From Ignisphaera sp. (GTDB lineage: Archaea > Thermoproteota > Thermoprotei_A > Sulfolobales > Ignisphaeraceae), in contig JAWBKZ010000002.1 of NCBI GenBank assembly GCA_038831005.1, positions 124,001 through 188,000 of the forward strand: a DNA stretch of 64,000 nucleotides, read 5' to 3'. Made by a program: the position numbers and the translations under genes. The notes beneath the pieces were generated by a model, which searched no databases, had not been told where the DNA came from, and worked only from the letters and a program-made list of their open reading frames with translations. The first letter of the stretch is position 1. Every line of letters starts with the position of its first letter. This document shows positions 12,861 to 23,019 of this stretch, in pieces.

Positions 12861-12866
12861 ATAATG

Positions 12867-13592
12867 ATGTCGGTCTATGAAGGTAAAAGTAAACGTGTTT
12901 ATGTAAAAGATGATTATATAGTAGTAATCGAATTCAAGGATGATGTAACTGCTATGGATGGTGCTGTGAAAGCTATAGCTAAAGATAAAGGTGTGATGAA
13001 TGCTGCTGTATCTGCTTATTTGTTTAATTATCTAGAGTCTCGCGGCATAAAAACACATTTCATAGACTATGATGGATATAGATGTATTATTGCAAAGAAG
13101 CTTGGGATAATCCCCGTAGAAGTTATTGTTAGAAATTACGCCTATGGATCGTTATTAAAGCGCATTCCTTTATACAAACCTCTGCAGAAGCTTGACCCTC
13201 CTTTACTGGAGTTTCACTTTAAGGATGACTCTATTCACGATCCCCTCATACTTCCTGAAGATATTATATATACGAATCTGCTTAAGAAAAATGAACTAGA
13301 TACTGTCATAGAGGTGTCGCTTAAAGCTAATGATGTACTTAGAGAGCTATTTACGTCCAAGAATCTTGTGCTCGTGGATATAAAGTTTGAGTTCGGTAAA
13401 GATAAGAATGGAAATATTCTACTAGCTGACGAAATATCTGGAGATACGCTTAGGGTTCTCGACGAAAATAGAAATCATTTAGATAAAGAGATCTTCCGAA
13501 AGACTAAGGATGTGGAATTATTGATAAAGGCATATAGAGAGCTATGTAATAGGCTTGGTATCGAGATGAAGAGCATTGCTGCATATGGTTGA
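12867..13592 (+). CDS. purC: SAICAR synthase (phosphoribosylaminoimidazole-succinocarboxamide synthase)
   Basis: PurC joins CAIR and aspartate with ATP to give SAICAR in de novo IMP synthesis. It begins SVYEGKSKRVY (family EGKTK-like motif) and shows the EVIVRNYAYGSLLKR segment, DPPLLEFHFKDD, and LVDIKFEFGKD..ILLADEISGDTLR. The length (241 aa) is standard. Two ATGs are adjacent (12864 and 12867); the second gives 6-nt spacing to GAGGT, so it is preferred. It is the first gene of an eight-gene purine operon. Confidence 0.95.
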   Translation: MSVYEGKSKRVYVKDDYIVVIEFKDDVTAMDGAVKAIAKDKGVMNAAVSAYLFNYLESRGIKTHFIDYDGYRCIIAKKLGIIPVEVIVRNYAYGSLLKRIPLYKPLQKLDPPLLEFHFKDDSIHDPLILPEDIIYTNLLKKNELDTVIEVSLKANDVLRELFTSKNLVLVDIKFEFGKDKNGNILLADEISGDTLRVLDENRNHLDKEIFRKTKDVELLIKAYRELCNRLGIEMKSIAAYG

Positions 13593-13830
13593 GGTTGTTA
13601 TAACTAACAAGAGGACTGTAAGAGATCCCGAAGGAGAAACAATACACAAGCACCTCATCCTGAGAAAGGGCTTCAATTCCGTTAAAAATGTTAGAGCTGG
13701 AAGATACTTGCTATTTGCAGTTGAGTCTGAAACTCCTGAGAAAGCTTTGGAGATTGTTAAAGAGATATGTGAAAAACTTAGGATCTACAATCCAGTTGTG
13801 CATGATATAGAGGTTAGGCTTCGTGGTTAA
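13585..13830 (+). CDS. purS: FGAM synthase subunit PurS
   Basis: PurS is the small bridging subunit that holds PurQ and PurL together in the FGAM synthase complex. It begins MVEVVITNKRTVRDPEGETI, followed by the typical VKNVRAGRYLLF segment, and has 81 aa, the normal size. An ATG 9 nt upstream exists, but 13585 matches the family start. The start overlaps the purC stop by 8 nt, as the purQ start overlaps the purS stop, which points to translational coupling. Confidence 0.93.
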   Translation: MVEVVITNKRTVRDPEGETIHKHLILRKGFNSVKNVRAGRYLLFAVESETPEKALEIVKEICEKLRIYNPVVHDIEVRLRG

Positions 13831-14512
13831 AGTAGCTATAATGAAGTTTCCTGGAACCAACTGTGATGAAGATGTCCATCATGTGTTGAAGAATGTCATT
13901 GGACTTGACTCAGAGATAGTATGGTATAAAGAATATGTAACAAATAGATATGATGCTGTTGTGGTTCCGGGAGGTTTTAGCTATGGTGATTGGCTTAGGG
14001 CGGGTGCTATAGCTGCTAGAAATGTTGTTATGGAGAGAGTAGCTGAAGATGTTTCTAGAGGTGTTCCTGTTCTAGGTATATGTAATGGTTTTCAGATACT
14101 AGTTGAGGCAGGTATGTTGCCTGGAGCACTCATACTGAACTCTAGTGGTAGATTCGTGTGCCGATGGATCAGACTTGTTGTAGAGAATGCCAGAGGACCT
14201 TGGCTCTCGCTTGCTAGAGATCGCATAATGCTTGACATGCCTATAGCTCATGCCGAAGGTAGATACTACATAGATGAAGAGACCTATAGAAGAATCGCTA
14301 ATGTTTCATCCATAATTAGGTATGCACAAGGCTGGAACCCCAATGGTAGTCTATACGATATTGCCGGTATAGCTGATGAAAAAGGACTGGTTCTAGGGCT
14401 AATGCCTCATCCGGAAAGAGCTTCAGAACCGGAACTCGTTCCAAGAGGGTTTTCTCCGGGAGGTAGAATCATATTTGATAGCCTTGCTTATTCGCTAAAG
14501 AAAGGGTGGTGA
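13823..14512 (+). CDS. purQ: FGAM synthase glutaminase subunit PurQ
   Basis: PurQ releases ammonia from glutamine for FGAM synthesis. It is a class I glutamine amidotransferase: the nucleophile Cys lies in VLGICNGFQ (about 85-93), the His/Glu pair in MPHPERASEP near the C-terminus, and VVPGGFSYGDWLRAG is a family hallmark. It has 229 aa. The start is GTG at 13823, overlapping purS by 8 nt; purL starts 2 nt after its stop. Confidence 0.95.
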   Translation: MVKVAIMKFPGTNCDEDVHHVLKNVIGLDSEIVWYKEYVTNRYDAVVVPGGFSYGDWLRAGAIAARNVVMERVAEDVSRGVPVLGICNGFQILVEAGMLPGALILNSSGRFVCRWIRLVVENARGPWLSLARDRIMLDMPIAHAEGRYYIDEETYRRIANVSSIIRYAQGWNPNGSLYDIAGIADEKGLVLGLMPHPERASEPELVPRGFSPGGRIIFDSLAYSLKKGW

Positions 14513-14513
14513 T

Positions 14514-16697
14514 ATGCCTTTAACAGATAGCGAGATAGAAGAGATAAGAAGTATACTCAATAGAGAGCCAACGGTAGAAGAGTTAGCTATGTTTGAAGCA
14601 CAATGGAGTGAACACTGTTCTTATAAGAGTAGCAGACTTCTTCTAAAGCTTCTACCTACGACAGGAAAACACGTTATAGTAGGTCCCGGTAAAGATGCTC
14701 CTGCTGTAGAACTTTTCCCCGGTATAGCTGTTGTTTTTAAGATTGAGAGCCATAACCATCCATCAGCTATAGATCCTTACGATGGTGCGGCAACAGGTAT
14801 AGGTGGTATAGTTAGGGATATTCTTACTCTAGGTGCTAAACCAATAGCTCTTCTAGATCTTCTCTACATGGGTGATCCCAAGGATCCTCATGCTAATTGG
14901 TTGATAAGGGGTATAGTTAAGGGTATAAGCGATTACGGCAATAGAATAGGTGTACCAACAGTTGCTGGCGATACATGGTTCGATTACGCCTTCGACATAC
15001 AGCCTCTAGTAAATGTTGTATGTGTGGGTATAGCTCCGATAGATAGGCTAGTTCTCAGAGGTCCTAGAGCTAATGACTATATAGTCATAATTGGTAATGC
15101 TACCGGTAGAGATGGTTTACTCGGTAGTAGTTTTGCTTCTAAACCATTAAGTGGTGAAGATGAGATTAGCGCTGTTCAGGTAGGAGACCCGTTGATGGAG
15201 AAGCTACTTATAGATGTTATCCAGATCTTAGTTGATAGAAAGCTTGTTAACTATATAAAGGATCTTGGTGGAGGAGGTCTAACGACAGCTATAAGCGAAA
15301 CTGTTGCTGATTATAATCTTGGCGCCGAAATATATTTAGATAGGCTTCATACAAGACAAGAATTGACACCTCTAGAGCTTCTGGTATCAGAAAGCCAAGA
15401 ACGTATGCTACTTGCTGTAGATCCTAACAATTTCCCTAAGGTTGTAGAAATACTTGAGAATTACGATGTCATGTTTAGCCTGATAGGGCGTTTCGATGAA
15501 AGTGGTAGGATAAGGGCATACTTCAAGGGAAAACTCGTAGCAGATGTTCCCTCAAAAGAGCTTGCAAGACCTAGAGCTATTAGAAGATCCTCTAAACCTC
15601 CTACAGAAGCGCTAAAGGGGTTTACTCCTGTAGTAGATGTACCGCAGATAGAATCTATAGAGAAAGTCATCATAGCTGTACTATCTTCACCCAATATAGC
15701 GTCCAAGAAGTGGATATATGAACAGTATGATTATGAGGTTGGTGCTAGAACGGTTATAAAGCCTGGATGGGGTGATGCTGCTGTCCTAAGACTATTGGAT
15801 GGTAGTGGAAGAGGACTCGCTATAAAGGGTGACGCTAATCCTAGATACACATTCTTAGACCCATTTAATGGTTCTGCCAATAGTGTGGCTGAGTGTTTTA
15901 GAAACCTTGTTGCTGTAGGTTCGAAACCCATAGCAATAGTTGATGAACTTAATGCTGGAAATCCTGAAAAACCAGAGCATTTCTGGTATTTTGAAGAAAT
16001 GTTGAAAGGAATAGCGTGGATTACAGAGGAGCTAGCGTTACCTGTTGTAGGTGGTAAAGTTAGTTTCTATAACGAGGATATGTATGGGAGACAGATAAAG
16101 CCTACATCCACTATAGTTGGTGTTGGAAAGGTAGATGATGTAACAGCTACGAAAACATTTGATTTTAAGTCTAGCAACTCCGTAATAATAGTTGTCGGTA
16201 TCACATATCCTGAACTTGGTGGTACAGAGTATCTCTATAGGGTTCATGGACTAGAGGTAGGCGAAATACCTAGACCGAGACCTGAGTTAGAGATTAGGAA
16301 TGCTGGGTTCATATTAGCAGCGATAAGGAGATCTCTTGTTAGTGCTGTACATGATATAGGGTTGGGAGGGCTTATAACAACAGTAATAGAGATGGCTATA
16401 GCAGGCAGTACAGGATTCAGCATAGATGTGTCTAAGGTTTTGTGTAGAGGTTGCTACAGACTTGACGAAATACTGTTCTCAGAAACACAGGCTAGGTATA
16501 TAGTAGAGGTGGATAGAGATAAGTTGGAGGCATTTCTAAGTCTCGCTAATGAATATAACGTCTATGCAAGTGTTGTTGGACATACATCCAATAAATCAAC
16601 ATGCATCATCAGAAATGGTGATAAAGAAGTCTCTGTCTTTGAGCTCGAGTTTCTTAAGAATATCTATGAAGAGGCTCTCAATAAAGAGCTTGAGTGA
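14514..16697 (+). CDS. purL: FGAM synthase large subunit PurL (small-type)
   Basis: PurL converts FGAR to FGAM with ATP and ammonia delivered from PurQ. The 727-aa length is that of the small PurL that needs PurQ and PurS. Motifs are MFEAQWSEHCSYKSS near residue 30, KIESHNHPSAIDPYDGAATG (about 77-96), the KDLGGGGLTTAISE loop (about 250) and a second AIRS-like half with GDANPRYTF and AVHDIGLGGL. All PurL partners are adjacent, in a fixed order. Confidence 0.96.
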   Translation: MPLTDSEIEEIRSILNREPTVEELAMFEAQWSEHCSYKSSRLLLKLLPTTGKHVIVGPGKDAPAVELFPGIAVVFKIESHNHPSAIDPYDGAATGIGGIVRDILTLGAKPIALLDLLYMGDPKDPHANWLIRGIVKGISDYGNRIGVPTVAGDTWFDYAFDIQPLVNVVCVGIAPIDRLVLRGPRANDYIVIIGNATGRDGLLGSSFASKPLSGEDEISAVQVGDPLMEKLLIDVIQILVDRKLVNYIKDLGGGGLTTAISETVADYNLGAEIYLDRLHTRQELTPLELLVSESQERMLLAVDPNNFPKVVEILENYDVMFSLIGRFDESGRIRAYFKGKLVADVPSKELARPRAIRRSSKPPTEALKGFTPVVDVPQIESIEKVIIAVLSSPNIASKKWIYEQYDYEVGARTVIKPGWGDAAVLRLLDGSGRGLAIKGDANPRYTFLDPFNGSANSVAECFRNLVAVGSKPIAIVDELNAGNPEKPEHFWYFEEMLKGIAWITEELALPVVGGKVSFYNEDMYGRQIKPTSTIVGVGKVDDVTATKTFDFKSSNSVIIVVGITYPELGGTEYLYRVHGLEVGEIPRPRPELEIRNAGFILAAIRRSLVSAVHDIGLGGLITTVIEMAIAGSTGFSIDVSKVLCRGCYRLDEILFSETQARYIVEVDRDKLEAFLSLANEYNVYASVVGHTSNKSTCIIRNGDKEVSVFELEFLKNIYEEALNKELE

Positions 16698-16702
16698 TAC
16701 AT

Positions 16703-18088
16703 GTGTGCGGTATAGCTGGTTATGCCTCAAGTAAACCAGCAAGTTTAGCAACATCAATAGCTCTATCTATATTGATAGAGCTTCAGCATAGGGGACAGGA
16801 ATCCGTGGGACTAGCTACAGTATCGCTAGATGGCTATATAGATGTTCGTAGCGGTAGAGGAACAGTTGTTGAGGCTTTACTAAATGGACTCACTGTTGAT
16901 ATGGGTAACAGGAATATTTTTGGTGCTATAGCCCACACAAGATATTCCACCTCTGGAGGATACATGGATAGTGTTTCTCAACCTATAGTTATAGGCAATG
17001 ATGACTATAGGTTTGTTCTAGCGGTTAACGGCACCATAGCTAACTACAAAATACTGGCGAAAACGTTTGGAATGGAGGGCAACTATAATGATGCTCAAGT
17101 CCTTGCCAACGTCTTATACAGGCTTGCACTAGAACACGATAAGGATGTTATTGAAGCCTTAAAGAGTTTCTCTAAAATAGCTATAGGGGGGTATAGTATT
17201 GTTATATTGACCTCTGAGCCCAGACTTGTAATAGCTAGAGATCCCTATGGTTTTAGACCTCTAGCCTATTCATATAATGGTGAAGAAATTGCTGTAGCTT
17301 CTGAAACTGCTGCACTCGATGTAGTTGGATACAATAACTGGATTGAAGTTGGGGCTGGAGAGATAATATCTTTTGATGGAAAATCGTTAGAACGAACACA
17401 CAGCATTACTGCCACCTTTTCTCCATGTGCATTCGAGTACGTGTATATCTCTAGACTCGATTCCGTATTCAATAACGTTAACATCTATACAGCTAGAGTT
17501 CGAATGGGCTATGAACTATCTAAAATGATGCCTGTAGAAGCAGATATAGTTGTTCCCGTACCAGATAGTGGACGTGGAGCAGCTATTGGCTACAGTAGAG
17601 GTAGTGGTATACCTCTTGAAGAGGGGCTTGTTATAAATAGGTATCTTGGTCGCGGATTCATATTGCCTCCAGGGCTTAGAGATGTTGTTGCTAAACTTAA
17701 GTATGGATTCATAAAGACAGCTATTCAGGAAAAGAAGGTTATACTTGTTGACGATTCTATAGTTAGAGGAACAACTATGGCGGCCATAGCGAGTAGGTTG
17801 AGGAAATATGGTGCTAAGGAAGTTCATATCAGGATATCTAGTCCTCCCTTTAGGTATCCATGTTTCATGGGAATAGATGTTGCCTCTAGAAGTGAGCTTC
17901 TAGCTTGGAGAAAAATGGATTTAGCAGATATAGCTTCATCTCTTAATGCGGATACTGTTGCCTATAACACAGTTGAAAATATCGTGAAATCTATAGGTAT
18001 AAATACGCTGTGTCTAGCCTGTTTTACCGGGACATACCCATTTAAAGGTTTAGGTGTTGAAGATCTTGAAGAAATGTTCTCTAGGTGA
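16703..18088 (+). CDS. purF: Amidophosphoribosyltransferase PurF
   Basis: PurF makes phosphoribosylamine from PRPP and glutamine, the first committed purine step. A GTG at 16703 yields M-C-GIAGY, placing the nucleophile Cys directly after the initiator Met as the Ntn hydrolase mechanism requires; a GTG at 16694 would add three residues and require propeptide removal. The glutaminase domain (1-230) has ELQHRGQESVG; the PRTase domain has ILVDDSIVRGTT. Four Cys at the positions of the Fe-S ligands are kept (PCAFEYVY, RYPCFMG, CLACFTG), so a [4Fe-4S] cluster is likely. Confidence 0.94.
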   Translation: MCGIAGYASSKPASLATSIALSILIELQHRGQESVGLATVSLDGYIDVRSGRGTVVEALLNGLTVDMGNRNIFGAIAHTRYSTSGGYMDSVSQPIVIGNDDYRFVLAVNGTIANYKILAKTFGMEGNYNDAQVLANVLYRLALEHDKDVIEALKSFSKIAIGGYSIVILTSEPRLVIARDPYGFRPLAYSYNGEEIAVASETAALDVVGYNNWIEVGAGEIISFDGKSLERTHSITATFSPCAFEYVYISRLDSVFNNVNIYTARVRMGYELSKMMPVEADIVVPVPDSGRGAAIGYSRGSGIPLEEGLVINRYLGRGFILPPGLRDVVAKLKYGFIKTAIQEKKVILVDDSIVRGTTMAAIASRLRKYGAKEVHIRISSPPFRYPCFMGIDVASRSELLAWRKMDLADIASSLNADTVAYNTVENIVKSIGINTLCLACFTGTYPFKGLGVEDLEEMFSR

Positions 18089-18094
18089 TACTCA

Positions 18095-19354
18095 GTGACA
18101 GGGCTGTTAGCAATATATGCTTTTGATGACTTGTGGAACTTGGGTCCCTACATAAGGTATGGATTGATGTCGCTACAGCATAGAGGTGCTGAAAACTATG
18201 TTGTATGTATTTCAGAAGGTGATGTAAAATGCTATACTGCGAACAACATAGACAATGTTAGTGAGCATGTTGCTACAAACAAGGTTATAGCTGCAACGTA
18301 TAGTAATAGAGATGAAGCTCTATACATCCATAAGGAAGACGGCCTAGATATTGCTGTTTTAGCTGATATACCTAATGCAGTTCTAGAAGAAGTAGCCAAA
18401 GAGCTTAGTAGAGCCTTAAAGAAAGATGGTACAGTTAAAGGTGTCACAAGAGCCTTAGAAAATTTTGGAGCAAAAGAGTACATACCTTCATTTATCGCTA
18501 TAACAAATCGAGGAGATATAATTGTTTGGCGAAGTGTAAGTGGATTAACACCTCTTGTCCTCGGAGGATACGGCTTCGATATGGCTATAGTATCCTCAGA
18601 AACAACAGCTATAGATATTCTCGGGGCTGATACAAGAAGATTCCTACTACCTGGTGAAGGTCTATTGATATCCAGATACCTTTTAACAAAATTCAATACA
18701 GCTTCAGCCATAAACCCAAGACTGTGTCTCTTCGAGATACTCTATCTGGCTAGACACGATGCTATAGTAGACAATGTATCTGTGTATAGTTTTAGAAAGA
18801 GCTTGGGCAAAGAACTGGGAGAGCGATTCAATAGAGATGTAGATGTTGTTGTAGGTGTACCTGAAACCGCTATACCTTACGCTATAGGCTTTTCTCAAAC
18901 AATAAATAAACCTTTTGAGTTAGCCTTTATTGCTACAGGAGGTAGGGTAAGGTCTATGCTTAGATTCGATCCTAGGGAAAAACTTATAGCAATTCATTTG
19001 AAAATGAATCCCATCAGACACAGTCTTGAAGGTAAAAGAGTTGCTATAGTGGATGATAGCATGGTTACGGGTTCAACAATAAAAACGATATCCCAGATAC
19101 TTAGATACAGAGTTGGTGTAGACGAAGTACATCTACTTATAGCTAGCCCTCCATTAATAAGTACCTGTCCCTACAACATCATGAAGCTAGATATGGAGAG
19201 TCTTCTAGCAGCTAATCTATCTAAGGAGATGGCACTAAAATATCTCGAAGTTGATTCACTTAGCTGGTTACAGCCAGAAGTAATTGATTCTGTTGCTAAA
19301 ATGTATAGACTGAAGTTGTGTGGAAAGTGCTTTGGTCGTGAGTTTTTTGGGTGA
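18095..19354 (+). CDS. PurF paralogue lacking the glutaminase nucleophile
   Basis: This 419-aa protein is collinear with PurF and follows it by 6 nt, so a tandem duplication is likely. Its N-terminus reads M-T-GLLAIYAF: Thr replaces the catalytic Cys. LMSLQHRGAENYV corresponds to the ELQHRGQES motif. The PRPP loop is retained but altered (AIVDDSMVTGSTI, with T for R), and the four Fe-S cysteine positions are recognisable (LCLFEILY, STCPYN, LCGKCF). It probably cannot use glutamine. Possible roles are an ammonia-dependent PRPP amidotransferase, or a structural or allosteric partner of PurF. The start is GTG at 18095. Confidence 0.85.
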   Translation: MTGLLAIYAFDDLWNLGPYIRYGLMSLQHRGAENYVVCISEGDVKCYTANNIDNVSEHVATNKVIAATYSNRDEALYIHKEDGLDIAVLADIPNAVLEEVAKELSRALKKDGTVKGVTRALENFGAKEYIPSFIAITNRGDIIVWRSVSGLTPLVLGGYGFDMAIVSSETTAIDILGADTRRFLLPGEGLLISRYLLTKFNTASAINPRLCLFEILYLARHDAIVDNVSVYSFRKSLGKELGERFNRDVDVVVGVPETAIPYAIGFSQTINKPFELAFIATGGRVRSMLRFDPREKLIAIHLKMNPIRHSLEGKRVAIVDDSMVTGSTIKTISQILRYRVGVDEVHLLIASPPLISTCPYNIMKLDMESLLAANLSKEMALKYLEVDSLSWLQPEVIDSVAKMYRLKLCGKCFGREFFG

Positions 19355-19358
19355 GTTT

Positions 19359-20852
19359 ATGAAAGTTCTGGTAGTAGGGTCGGGAGGAAGAGAACATGCA
19401 TTAACACTTCTGATATCTAGAAGTATGCTGAATCCGAAGATCTATATAGTTATGGATTATAGGAATCCAGGTCTAGAGAGAATTTCGGAGAAATCTGGAG
19501 GAAGATGGTTTATAGCTACAACAACTAGCCCTAAAGAAGTTGGCAAAACTGCTGAAGAAGTTTCACCAGATCTAGTTATCATAGGTCCTGAGGAACCGCA
19601 ATTCAGTGGGGTCTCTACATACTTGAGGGAGAAGGGGTTCATAGTATTTGGAGCAGATGCTAAATGCGCAGAAATAGAGAAGAGTAAGGTTTTTGCAAGA
19701 ACATTGATGTGGAAATACGAAATACCTGGGAGACTCTACTTTAAAGCATTCAGAAGTATTGATGAAGCAAAGAAGTTCATAGAGTTTGCTGGAGATGTTG
19801 TGATAAAGCCCGCTCGACAAGCAGGTGGAAAAGGTGTTAAGGTTCTTAAAGATACTCAAGCCTATCTCTCAAAAGATAAGGTCAATATAAAGAAGAACTA
19901 TATAGATAAACTCTACTCCGAGATGGAGAGCTACGGAGATATAGACTACAAGATACTTGTTGAACAAAGAGTTGAAGGAGTAGAATACACAGCCCAGGTT
20001 ATAACTGATGGAAGTAGCTTCGTGTTCCTACCCATAATACAAGACCATCCCCATGCATACGAATTTGACACAGGTCCAGAAACAGGTGGTATGGGAAGTA
20101 TATCGGGACCCGGATGGATACCACCATTTCTGGATCAGGAAGAATTTGAGAGAACCAAAGACATTGTTGCAAAAGTGCTGTATAGTTTAAGTGTTGAGAT
20201 TGGTATCAATTATATGGGTGCTTTTGCGGGACAAATGATGCTCACTGGTGTATGGGGTCCAACAGTTATAGAGTTCTATAGCAGGTTTGGTGATCCAGAA
20301 GCATCTAATCTTGTACCTATTGTAGTAAGTGATTTCCTAGATCTTCTAGATAGAGCTGCTAGACAGAAATTGGCTTCAGCTAAGCTTGAGATAGATGAAG
20401 AGAAAGTTGTTGTAGTAAAAGCTGTAGCACCCGTAGGCTATCCAGATAACAAGAGGATAGCTATTGATCACCCCATAAAGGTTGATGAGGATAGAATCAA
20501 GGATATAGGATGTGAAGTGCTTTATGCTAGTGTTAGTATAGGTCCTGATGGAAATCTATACACAAGAGGGTCTAGAGCTGTAGAGATAGTGTGTTATGGA
20601 TCGAGTTACGAAGAAGCCTATAGTTTGTCTGAAAAAGCTGTGACGTATGTTGAGAGTCTTGATGGTTGGTCTCTATTCCATAGAGGTGATATAGGTTCGC
20701 CATGGCTTGTTAGAGAGAGAATAAAACTTGCTGAAAAAATAAGGAGGATATATAGTGATAGAGCTCGAAGAGGGGTACTGGGTGAGATGTATGTATGGAT
20801 ACCAGGTGAAGGAATTTATTCGAATCCTCTCTTATCTCCTGTAAGGTGGTAG
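19359..20852 (+). CDS. purD: Phosphoribosylamine-glycine ligase PurD
   Basis: PurD is a GAR synthetase that ligates glycine to phosphoribosylamine with ATP. The ATP-grasp enzyme begins MKVLVVGSGGREHAL (ATG at 19359, 5 nt after the previous stop); an upstream in-frame extension into the PurF-like gene lacks conserved residues. The grasp domain shows VVIKPARQAGGKGVKVL and GGMGSISGPGW, and the metal region VIEFYSRFGDPEA. At 497 aa it is longer than the bacterial norm (about 430), with extra sequence inside the ATP-grasp region. Confidence 0.95.
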   Translation: MKVLVVGSGGREHALTLLISRSMLNPKIYIVMDYRNPGLERISEKSGGRWFIATTTSPKEVGKTAEEVSPDLVIIGPEEPQFSGVSTYLREKGFIVFGADAKCAEIEKSKVFARTLMWKYEIPGRLYFKAFRSIDEAKKFIEFAGDVVIKPARQAGGKGVKVLKDTQAYLSKDKVNIKKNYIDKLYSEMESYGDIDYKILVEQRVEGVEYTAQVITDGSSFVFLPIIQDHPHAYEFDTGPETGGMGSISGPGWIPPFLDQEEFERTKDIVAKVLYSLSVEIGINYMGAFAGQMMLTGVWGPTVIEFYSRFGDPEASNLVPIVVSDFLDLLDRAARQKLASAKLEIDEEKVVVVKAVAPVGYPDNKRIAIDHPIKVDEDRIKDIGCEVLYASVSIGPDGNLYTRGSRAVEIVCYGSSYEEAYSLSEKAVTYVESLDGWSLFHRGDIGSPWLVRERIKLAEKIRRIYSDRARRGVLGEMYVWIPGEGIYSNPLLSPVRW

Positions 20853-20854
20853 GT

Positions 20855-22072
20855 ATGGAGAAGAGAAACTATCTATCAACACCTATGTTTGGTGAATCGA
20901 TAAAGATCATGTTGCTTGGTTCTGGAGAACTCGGTAAAGAGGTAGCTATAGAGGCTCAGAGACTAGGTGTAGAAATTGTAGCTGTAGATAGATATGATTG
21001 GGCTCCAGCAATGCATGTAGCACATAGACGCTATGTGATAGACATGCTTAATTCTAATGCCGTTAAGGCTGTTGTGAAGAGAGAGAAACCAGACGTAATT
21101 GTGCCTGAGATCGAGGCCATAGCTACAGATGCATTGATAGAACTTGAGGAAGAAGGATACTTCGTAGTTCCTAATGCTACAGCCGTAAAGATAGCTATGA
21201 ATAGAATTGAACTGAGGAAATATGCGGCAGAAAAACTGGGGCTACCAACAACTAAATACGCATTGGCTACTAACGAAGATGAAGCTGTAGAGGCCTGTGA
21301 CAAAATTGGTTACCCGTGTCTGATAAAGCCTGAAATGAGTAGCAGTGGCCATGGACATGCCAAGGTATTCGAACCTTCTCCTAAAGCTGTTAGAGATGCT
21401 TATAACTACGCTATAGCTCATGCAAGAGGTAGAAGTGGACGTGTAATAGTTGAAGAATATGTAGATCTCAAAACAGAATTCACTATATTAAGCTATAGGT
21501 ATTTAGATGAAGATGGCTCTATAGTAACAGATACATGTGAACCTGTTGAACATTGGAGATACGGTCACTACCACTATATAGAGTCATGGCAACCCTCATC
21601 TAAACCTCTAGAAATACTGAACAAAGCTAAAGAAATAGGTATAGCTGTTGCTAAGGGTCTCGGCGGTTTAGGGATATTTGGTGTAGAAGTATTCCTAACA
21701 AAAGACGGTAGAATTCTGTTTAGCGAAGTTGCTCCAAGACCTCATGATACAGGTATGGTCACCATGGCTAGTCAGGAATTGAGCGAATTCGCAATACATG
21801 TTAGAGCCATATTGGGCTTACCTATACCTAGACCAAGAATAGTGACACCAGCTGCAAGTCTAGCTATATACACAGATAAAGACAATATATGGGCACCAAA
21901 ATTCTACGGCATTTATGAAGCATTAAAGATACCTGGAGTAGACATAAGGACCTTCGGTAAACCGGCAACGTATAGAGAAAGAAGAATGGCTGTAATATTA
22001 GCTAAAGGTCTTACTGTAGAAGAAGCTCTTGAGAAAGCACGTAAAGCTCTTACCCACATAAGAATAGAATAA
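20855..22072 (+). CDS. purT: Formate-dependent GAR transformylase PurT
   Basis: PurT formylates GAR using formate and ATP, so no folate is needed, in line with archaeal C1 chemistry. The family N-terminus is seen as IKIMLLGSGELGKEVAIEAQRLG; the ATP-grasp part includes LIKPEMSSSGHGHAK, EEYVDLKTEFTIL and FSEVAPRPHDTGMVT. The preferred start is ATG 20855, 2 nt after the purD stop (GTG 20846 is also in frame). It is the last gene of the operon; purM, purE/K, purB and purH/P/O are not in the window. Confidence 0.95.
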   Translation: MEKRNYLSTPMFGESIKIMLLGSGELGKEVAIEAQRLGVEIVAVDRYDWAPAMHVAHRRYVIDMLNSNAVKAVVKREKPDVIVPEIEAIATDALIELEEEGYFVVPNATAVKIAMNRIELRKYAAEKLGLPTTKYALATNEDEAVEACDKIGYPCLIKPEMSSSGHGHAKVFEPSPKAVRDAYNYAIAHARGRSGRVIVEEYVDLKTEFTILSYRYLDEDGSIVTDTCEPVEHWRYGHYHYIESWQPSSKPLEILNKAKEIGIAVAKGLGGLGIFGVEVFLTKDGRILFSEVAPRPHDTGMVTMASQELSEFAIHVRAILGLPIPRPRIVTPAASLAIYTDKDNIWAPKFYGIYEALKIPGVDIRTFGKPATYRERRMAVILAKGLTVEEALEKARKALTHIRIE

Positions 22073-22275: not shown

Positions 22276-23019
22276 TTATTTGCTTAATTCGTAGGTTTTA
22301 TTTCTGGGTATTACTTCAAATATGTTAGCTACACCATGGCATGAACATGCAGTTGCTATAGCAATTAGATTATAGCGATCTATATATTTATCTAAATCCT
22401 TTAAGAAGCTATATAATTCTAAACCGCTATAGCCTCCAATTCCCTCTACAATAAATTGTGATTCAAGTACTATGCTTAAATTAGTTATATGCCTCAAAAC
22501 ATATTTCAGAATCTCTTTGAGTGGAGCTATTTTAGTTTTACCTGTAATGGGGCATACAGGAGGTTCTATGCAATCAGGTTTACATAGTTTGTTAAACGGC
22601 ATATAACTCATTACAACTATCCCATTTAGAGAATCGACTTTTACATCAACCTCATAATCTCTAATCATATCAACAACTCTAGCTATAGATTTAGATGGAT
22701 ATACACTACATGCTTTAGCAATTAGATACCTCTCTACAACTTTTCCAGCCAAATGTATTGGAACAGTAGGTATTATAATTGAAGGAATTATATTTAGCAT
22801 CAACAATCTGAGAAGAACCTCTACCACATCAGCTATCAGCAAGACCTTTCTACATCTTTTTCCTTTTCTCATTAGTTTATCTAGACTTTGTAGCGTACAA
22901 TCAACGTATCTGTTAGCTGGACATTTGCTATTGATATCCACGACAAGAATTTCATCTTTATTATCTATTGATAGTAGAGCTTTTGTTCCATAGAATCCGC
23001 CTCCAGCTATAAGTATCAT
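22276..23019 (-). CDS. Uncharacterised Rossmann-like protein with conserved-looking Cys clusters
   Basis: The N-terminus MILIAGGGFYGTKAL and the following strand ILVVDIN indicate a Rossmann-type dinucleotide-binding fold (247 aa). The second half contains a Cys group C-K-P-D-C-I-E-P-P-V-C-P (about residues 165-176) and a C-terminal ATACSCHGVANIFEV segment, suggesting bound metal or an Fe-S centre. I do not recognise a named family. It lies 40 nt downstream of egsA on the same strand and may be co-transcribed with it; a link to lipid or redox metabolism is only a guess. Confidence 0.65.
   Translation of the reverse strand: MILIAGGGFYGTKALLSIDNKDEILVVDINSKCPANRYVDCTLQSLDKLMRKGKRCRKVLLIADVVEVLLRLLMLNIIPSIIIPTVPIHLAGKVVERYLIAKACSVYPSKSIARVVDMIRDYEVDVKVDSLNGIVVMSYMPFNKLCKPDCIEPPVCPITGKTKIAPLKEILKYVLRHITNLSIVLESQFIVEGIGGYSGLELYSFLKDLDKYIDRYNLIAIATACSCHGVANIFEVIPRNKTYELSK

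Follow-up and report, generated by a model that had tools for sequence, protein, structure and literature searches.

Why does the purine operon of an Ignisphaera species keep, immediately behind an intact gene for glutamine PRPP amidotransferase, a second PurF-like gene whose product lacks the glutaminase nucleophile? We addressed this question from a window of 64,000 nucleotides, by which we mean the whole stretch of DNA analysed. NCBIfam annotation gave the cluster order purC-S-Q-L-F-F'-D-T, placing the paralogue (purF') between the intact purF and purD, with the following features:

12864 to 16697, plus strand: purC, purS, purQ and purL, in the same cluster as purF'
16703 to 18088, plus strand: purF, intact glutamine PRPP amidotransferase with an M-C-G start
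18086 to 18088, plus strand: in-frame TGA, the stop of purF, which sets the purF' start and bars an upstream Cys
18095 to 19354, plus strand: purF', PurF paralogue without the glutaminase nucleophile, 419 aa, GTG start, M-T-G-L-L
18098 to 18100, plus strand: Thr codon in place of the glutaminase Cys (alignment column 2)
19359 to 20852, plus strand: purD (GAR synthetase), with 4 nt between the purF' stop and the purD start
20846 to 22072, plus strand: purT (formate-dependent GAR transformylase), in the same cluster

An earlier note on this DNA had described a paralogue that begins M-T-G instead of M-C-G and directly follows intact purF in the purine operon; both statements hold, with the open reading frame found exactly at 18095-19354 and purF ending at 18088. 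An alternative start that would give PurF' an N-terminal Cys, the possibility raised in the same note, is ruled out by the in-frame TGA at 18086-18088, which leaves just Tyr-Ser ahead of the GTG, so that no other start can supply the residue. For purF itself, the GTG at 16703 (M-C-G) is better placed than a start at 16694. Past the pur cluster, a 247-aa open reading frame lies on the opposite strand (window 22276-23019, minus strand) and gave no NCBIfam match at E 1e-10.

To place the window protein among its relatives, we extracted 80 PurF' and 85 PurF sequences from loci across the phylum, assigning each to one or the other by profile score and not by presence of the Cys. Two fragments (L124, L126), a partial PurF (L017), shorter duplicates, and GlmS-like and other proteins with a PurF'-profile score below 100 were set aside before counting. 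Cys occupied the nucleophile position in all 85 PurF and in none of the 80 PurF', which instead carried Ala (n = 38), Ser (n = 13), Thr (n = 10), Gly (n = 6), Pro (n = 6), Met (n = 3), Val (n = 2), Leu (n = 1) or Ile (n = 1). The Thr of the window protein, whose conservation in orthologues the earlier note had proposed to check, is therefore a minority state with Ala the commonest, and orthologues bearing Cys, for which it had also allowed, were not found among the 80 PurF'. Apparent upstream cysteines in L020, L115 and L138, each within a 'CG' dipeptide, were read-through of the preceding sequence and did not align with the start.

The loss of the glutaminase half in PurF' is much wider than the Cys alone. 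The glutaminase columns align to B. subtilis and Arabidopsis PurF, and we take them to be E. coli Cys1, Arg73, Asn101, Gly102 and Asp127, with the roles that these residues have there. All five were present in each of the 85 PurF, whilst 33 PurF' retained none, 29 retained one and 18 retained two. Besides the Cys, the window PurF' has lost the Arg, Tyr, Asn, Gly and Asp of the glutamine site, with Tyr, Asp, Ile and a gap standing at the Arg, Asn-Gly and Asp columns. These counts support the claim, made at first from the missing Cys, that PurF' cannot hydrolyse glutamine.

Despite this loss, PurF' is a PurF homologue far beyond chance, given a phmmer E-value of 3.6e-46 to B. subtilis PurF (1ao0), with the best stretch spanning residues 132-413. 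Identity to the neighbouring PurF was 29% across 317 alignment columns. Against the NCBIfam equivalog for purF (TIGR01134), PurF' scored 157.2 bits, under the 350-bit cut-off, compared with 350.5 for the neighbouring PurF; it carries Thr in place of the N-terminal Cys and lacks the glutamine-binding Arg, Asn-Gly and Asp, but has the phosphoribosyltransferase (PRTase) domain with its PRPP loop, PPi loop and Tyr258 equivalent. A structure model built from four sequences only (mean pLDDT 61.9, pTM 0.67) retrieved PurF structures first in a fold search (1gph, E 5.5e-23, TM 0.46), which supports a shared PurF fold. Because the alignment behind the model is thin, and TM-scores to PurF folds are low (0.37-0.47) despite the clear E-value, the model was used for the overall fold alone.

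The half of the protein that persists is the one that handles PRPP, together with the Fe-S cysteines, which are placed as follows:

18725 to 18727, plus strand: codon of the Fe-S ligand Cys211 (Cys in 77/80 PurF')
18743 to 18745, plus strand: Tyr217, equivalent of E. coli Tyr258 and Arabidopsis Tyr329, a PRPP pyrophosphate contact (Tyr in 79/80)
19052 to 19078, plus strand: PRPP loop, D320-T328 (DDSMVTGST)
19166 to 19168, plus strand: codon of the Fe-S ligand Cys358 (80/80 PurF')
19319 to 19330, plus strand: Fe-S ligands Cys409 and Cys412 (CGKC; 80/80 each)

All four Fe-S cysteine positions are thus kept, as the earlier note had read them; its count of one substitution in the PRPP loop needs correcting to three relative to the neighbouring PurF (VDDSIVRGTT to VDDSMVTGST). 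We scored eight PRPP-site positions (the Tyr258 equivalent, the PPi-loop Pro, the flexible-loop Arg, Asp-Asp-Ser, Gly and Thr), allowing D/E, S/T and T/S/N at three of them, and found all eight kept in 85/85 PurF and 79/80 PurF', the exception (L063) missing two. The flexible-loop Lys was present in every PurF' but in only 61 of the 85 PurF. In a study of the Arabidopsis enzyme, whose residue numbers we matched to PurF' by alignment, activity was crippled when the corresponding Tyr, either Asp or the Ser was mutated, and the counterpart of the Tyr touches pyrophosphate in E. coli PurF (PMC7056826).

Mean pairwise identities, computed over the 42 loci carrying both purF and purF', distinguish the two halves further. 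The N-domain (PurF 0.377, PurF' 0.309) and above all the glutamine-binding loop (0.595 and 0.267) are less conserved in PurF', whereas values for the PRTase part (0.462 and 0.478), the PPi loop (0.608 and 0.700) and the flexible loop (0.369 and 0.496) are higher in PurF', with the PRPP loop at 0.706 in PurF and 0.670 in PurF'. Judged by these alignments, constraint on the PRTase site is at least as tight in PurF' as in PurF. Some positions have nonetheless changed in a group-specific manner. The PRPP-loop Arg, invariant in the 85 PurF, is kept in 23 of the 80 PurF' and replaced by Thr in 43 (the window protein among them) and Ser in 11; the Phe at the flexible-loop entrance, found in 85/85 PurF, is Ala or Met in 78/80 PurF'; Tyr is replaced by Trp at column 421 in 53/80; and a G-x-x-G-F-D motif at residues 157-162 is conserved at 97-100% in PurF' and does not occur in PurF.

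The pattern is best, if tentatively, explained by PurF' being a glutaminase-dead phosphoribosyltransferase that would combine PRPP with ammonia into phosphoribosylamine (PRA) close to PurD. PurF' has lost the glutaminase half-reaction and kept the PRPP site, and would use ammonia that is either free or produced by the neighbouring intact PurF. Among the three roles offered in the earlier note (an ammonia-dependent enzyme, a heteromeric partner and a nucleotide sensor), the first fits best because the eight PRPP-site positions are almost universally kept and PurF' exceeds PurF in conservation of the PPi and flexible loops. Catalysis by PurF', ammonia as its nucleophile, the source of that ammonia and any protein contacts are all inferred. 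Ammonia remains a substrate for E. coli PurF whose Cys has been replaced by Ala or Ser, as stated by Brown et al. (PMC3261824). The frequent replacement of the PRPP-loop Arg and the flexible-loop Phe would speak against PRA synthesis, and a non-catalytic PRPP-sensing subunit would keep PRPP-binding residues as well.

Such a subunit is the most serious alternative, and we consider it nearly as likely as PRA synthesis. PurF' might be the non-catalytic member of a PurF/PurF' hetero-oligomer. With PRPP or a nucleotide bound in its PRPP site, it would tune how active or stable PurF is, or how PurF couples to PurD, with no turnover of its own. Characterised bacterial PurF enzymes are described as homotetramers in the Arabidopsis paper (PMC7056826), so that a paralogue could join the tetramer. 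The mostly replaced PRPP-loop Arg is in keeping with a non-catalytic role, as are the constant pairing of the two genes in well-assembled genomes of the window's order and the position of purF' behind purF described below. Harder to reconcile with it is that the two loops needed for binding and turning over PRPP, the PPi loop and the flexible loop, are better conserved in PurF' than in PurF.

A division of labour in which PurF lacks a PRTase site wherever PurF' exists was also considered and found no support, the PRTase residues of PurF being kept about equally with or without PurF'. The flexible-loop Lys is missing from PurF in some PurF'-bearing families and also in 8 of 22 genomes without PurF'. 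Since PurF in PurF'-bearing genomes keeps its PRTase site, PurF' is no replacement for a lost function. Within individual families, the Cys-bearing PurF of L111-L113 (family f34) and of L114-L123 (f25) has lost the flexible-loop Lys throughout, and the f25 proteins also show Arg to His, Asp to Ala or Gly and Thr to Asn at three other conserved columns. Similar PRTase changes occur in PurF of some genomes without PurF'.

Phylogenetic analysis placed PurF', probably an old paralogue of the amidotransferase, in a single group. A maximum-likelihood tree built from the PRTase part put all 80 PurF' on one side of a branch with SH-aLRT 100, and with two outgroup sequences added PurF' and PurF appeared as sister groups (SH-aLRT 100 and 89). 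When the set was thinned to 61 rows, the 34 PurF rows no longer formed a single group, and an AU test did not reject the arrangement joining PurF' with the PurF of the window's order (p 0.077). A decaying duplicate without function would account for the poorly conserved N-terminal domain and for the single in-frame stop in a few PurF' matches, but one old group across all 80 sampled loci, with a PRTase part conserved as in PurF, renders this very improbable.

We searched 229 genomes of the window's class with the PurF' profile at E 1e-20; the genomes listed were all of the window's order, and 131 non-matching genomes lay outside the listing of the class. PurF-like matches occurred in 78 genomes of the order, 73 with two, one with three and four with one, and the window's own genome (G000) holds one PurF and one PurF'. 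The four single-match genomes (G150, G153, G154 and G190) are 56-77% complete and contain PurF only, whilst every one of the 53 good-quality genomes of the order with a match (at least 90% complete, at most 5% contamination) carries two. Across the phylum sample, 262 of 398 genomes matched the PurF' profile, comprising families with two matches and families with one, and no PurF' was detected in the 22 one-match genomes examined with the purF model. Outside the order, G413 and G550 (95% and 92% complete) have one PurF and no PurF' though family relatives possess it, possibly reflecting losses or assembly gaps. PurF' without PurF, as it appeared in G422, G437 and G546, was discarded as a finding when extra PurF-like fragments, broken or at contig edges, turned up in these genomes. 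The PurF' matches of G086, G189, G194, G285 and G339 each contain one in-frame stop, which may reflect frameshift, assembly error or decay.

Gene neighbourhoods tie purF' both to purF and to purD. Directly upstream on the same strand lies purF in 54 of the 80 loci, and in four more purF is adjacent on the opposite strand. The purD gene adjoins purF' on the same strand in 68 of the 80 (62 downstream, 6 upstream). Nine loci have purC instead of purF upstream, and purD follows in all nine, often overlapping the purF' stop, with the purF of such genomes ~6-7 kb away; that purD still follows in these loci is a point against a simple partner of PurF. For comparison, purD comes directly after purF in 12 of the 22 control genomes, which have no PurF', so the purD linkage may be inherited gene order, and as a functional sign it is no more than suggestive. 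In L115 (G265) and L120 (G319), purF and purF' face each other on opposite strands, whilst in other members of the family they are several kb apart.

Two further roles are less probable. PurF' could be a phosphoribosyltransferase with another amine or base acceptor, acting outside or beside the PRA step. The acceptor-side changes at the flexible-loop Phe and column 421, together with the PurF'-specific G-x-x-G-F-D motif, would suit such a role, and some known purine enzymes are missing from crenarchaea according to Brown et al. (PMC3261824). Nevertheless, PurF' strictly accompanies purF and the purine cluster, and Pfam and NCBIfam scans found no further domain in it, making a different acceptor improbable. 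A nucleotide sensor or operon regulator appears slightly more improbable still. B. subtilis PurR is a regulator with a phosphoribosyltransferase fold, and a PurR structure was among the fold matches (rank 45, E 3.8e-3); against this, the Pfam and NCBIfam scans found no DNA-binding domain in PurF'. At the equivalent of B. subtilis R307, which we take to belong to the allosteric site, 70 of the 85 PurF and none of the 80 PurF' have a basic residue, which leaves the nucleotide sensing offered in the earlier note weakened, though not discarded.

Returning to ammonia-dependent PRA synthesis, the unstable PRA would be made close to PurD, its consumer, and PurF, PurF' and PurD may form one assembly. 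We regard the full three-protein unit, in which PurF frees ammonia, PurF' uses ammonia to supply the PRA in part or in full, and PurD receives it, as rather unlikely when taken as a whole; purD does remain next to purF' at loci where purF lies elsewhere. If true, such a unit would represent an ammonia-using PRA synthase and a means of coping with a highly unstable intermediate in hot cells. Purine synthesis is committed at the step that PurF catalyses, and throughout an archaeal group a second copy is retained that is unable to use glutamine. Were PurF' to prove an ammonia-dependent PRA synthase, or a partner that PurF cannot do without, purine synthesis in these organisms would begin differently from the textbook account, and one could test how hyperthermophiles handle so labile an intermediate.

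The gene belongs to a kind already known. According to Brown et al. 2011 (Biol Direct 6:63; PMC3261824), who named PurF' as the second PurF-like protein of crenarchaea, each purine-making crenarchaeon studied has one, without the N-terminal Cys and encoded near purF and other pur genes; the same paper puts forward a role as ammonia-dependent PRPP aminotransferase, and states that the purF duplications had no established biochemical or regulatory explanation as of 2011. The ammonia-dependent idea for PurF' is therefore theirs. A 2009 paper labels SSO0632 of S. solfataricus 'purF-1' (PMC2739297). Our literature search, with most subscription journals outside its reach, found no later experiments on PurF' function.

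Since the PurF' group was published in 2011, the window gene is filed as PurF', and it matches the described features: its protein has no N-terminal Cys, it falls in the separate cluster (SH-aLRT 100) with one of each protein in its genome (G000), and it lies close to purF and the purine genes. Judged by description, nothing sets it apart from the crenarchaeal PurF' of Brown et al. 2011. Canonical PurF (TIGR01134; B. subtilis 1ao0/1gph, E. coli 1ecb, Arabidopsis 6lbp) is the best sequence and fold match, sharing the PRPP site and, as placed in B. subtilis, the Fe-S cysteines, but PurF' differs in lacking the nucleophile and the glutamine site and in scoring below the family cut-off. Mlab_0150 of Methanocorpusculum labreanum is likewise an archaeal PurF duplicate without the Cys (Ser there), yet it is described as a relatively recent duplicate of that organism's own purF, outside the crenarchaeal group (PMC3261824). 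Beyond Brown et al. 2011, the present analysis adds wider sampling, the loss of the other glutaminase residues, the retention of the PRPP site and the link to purD.
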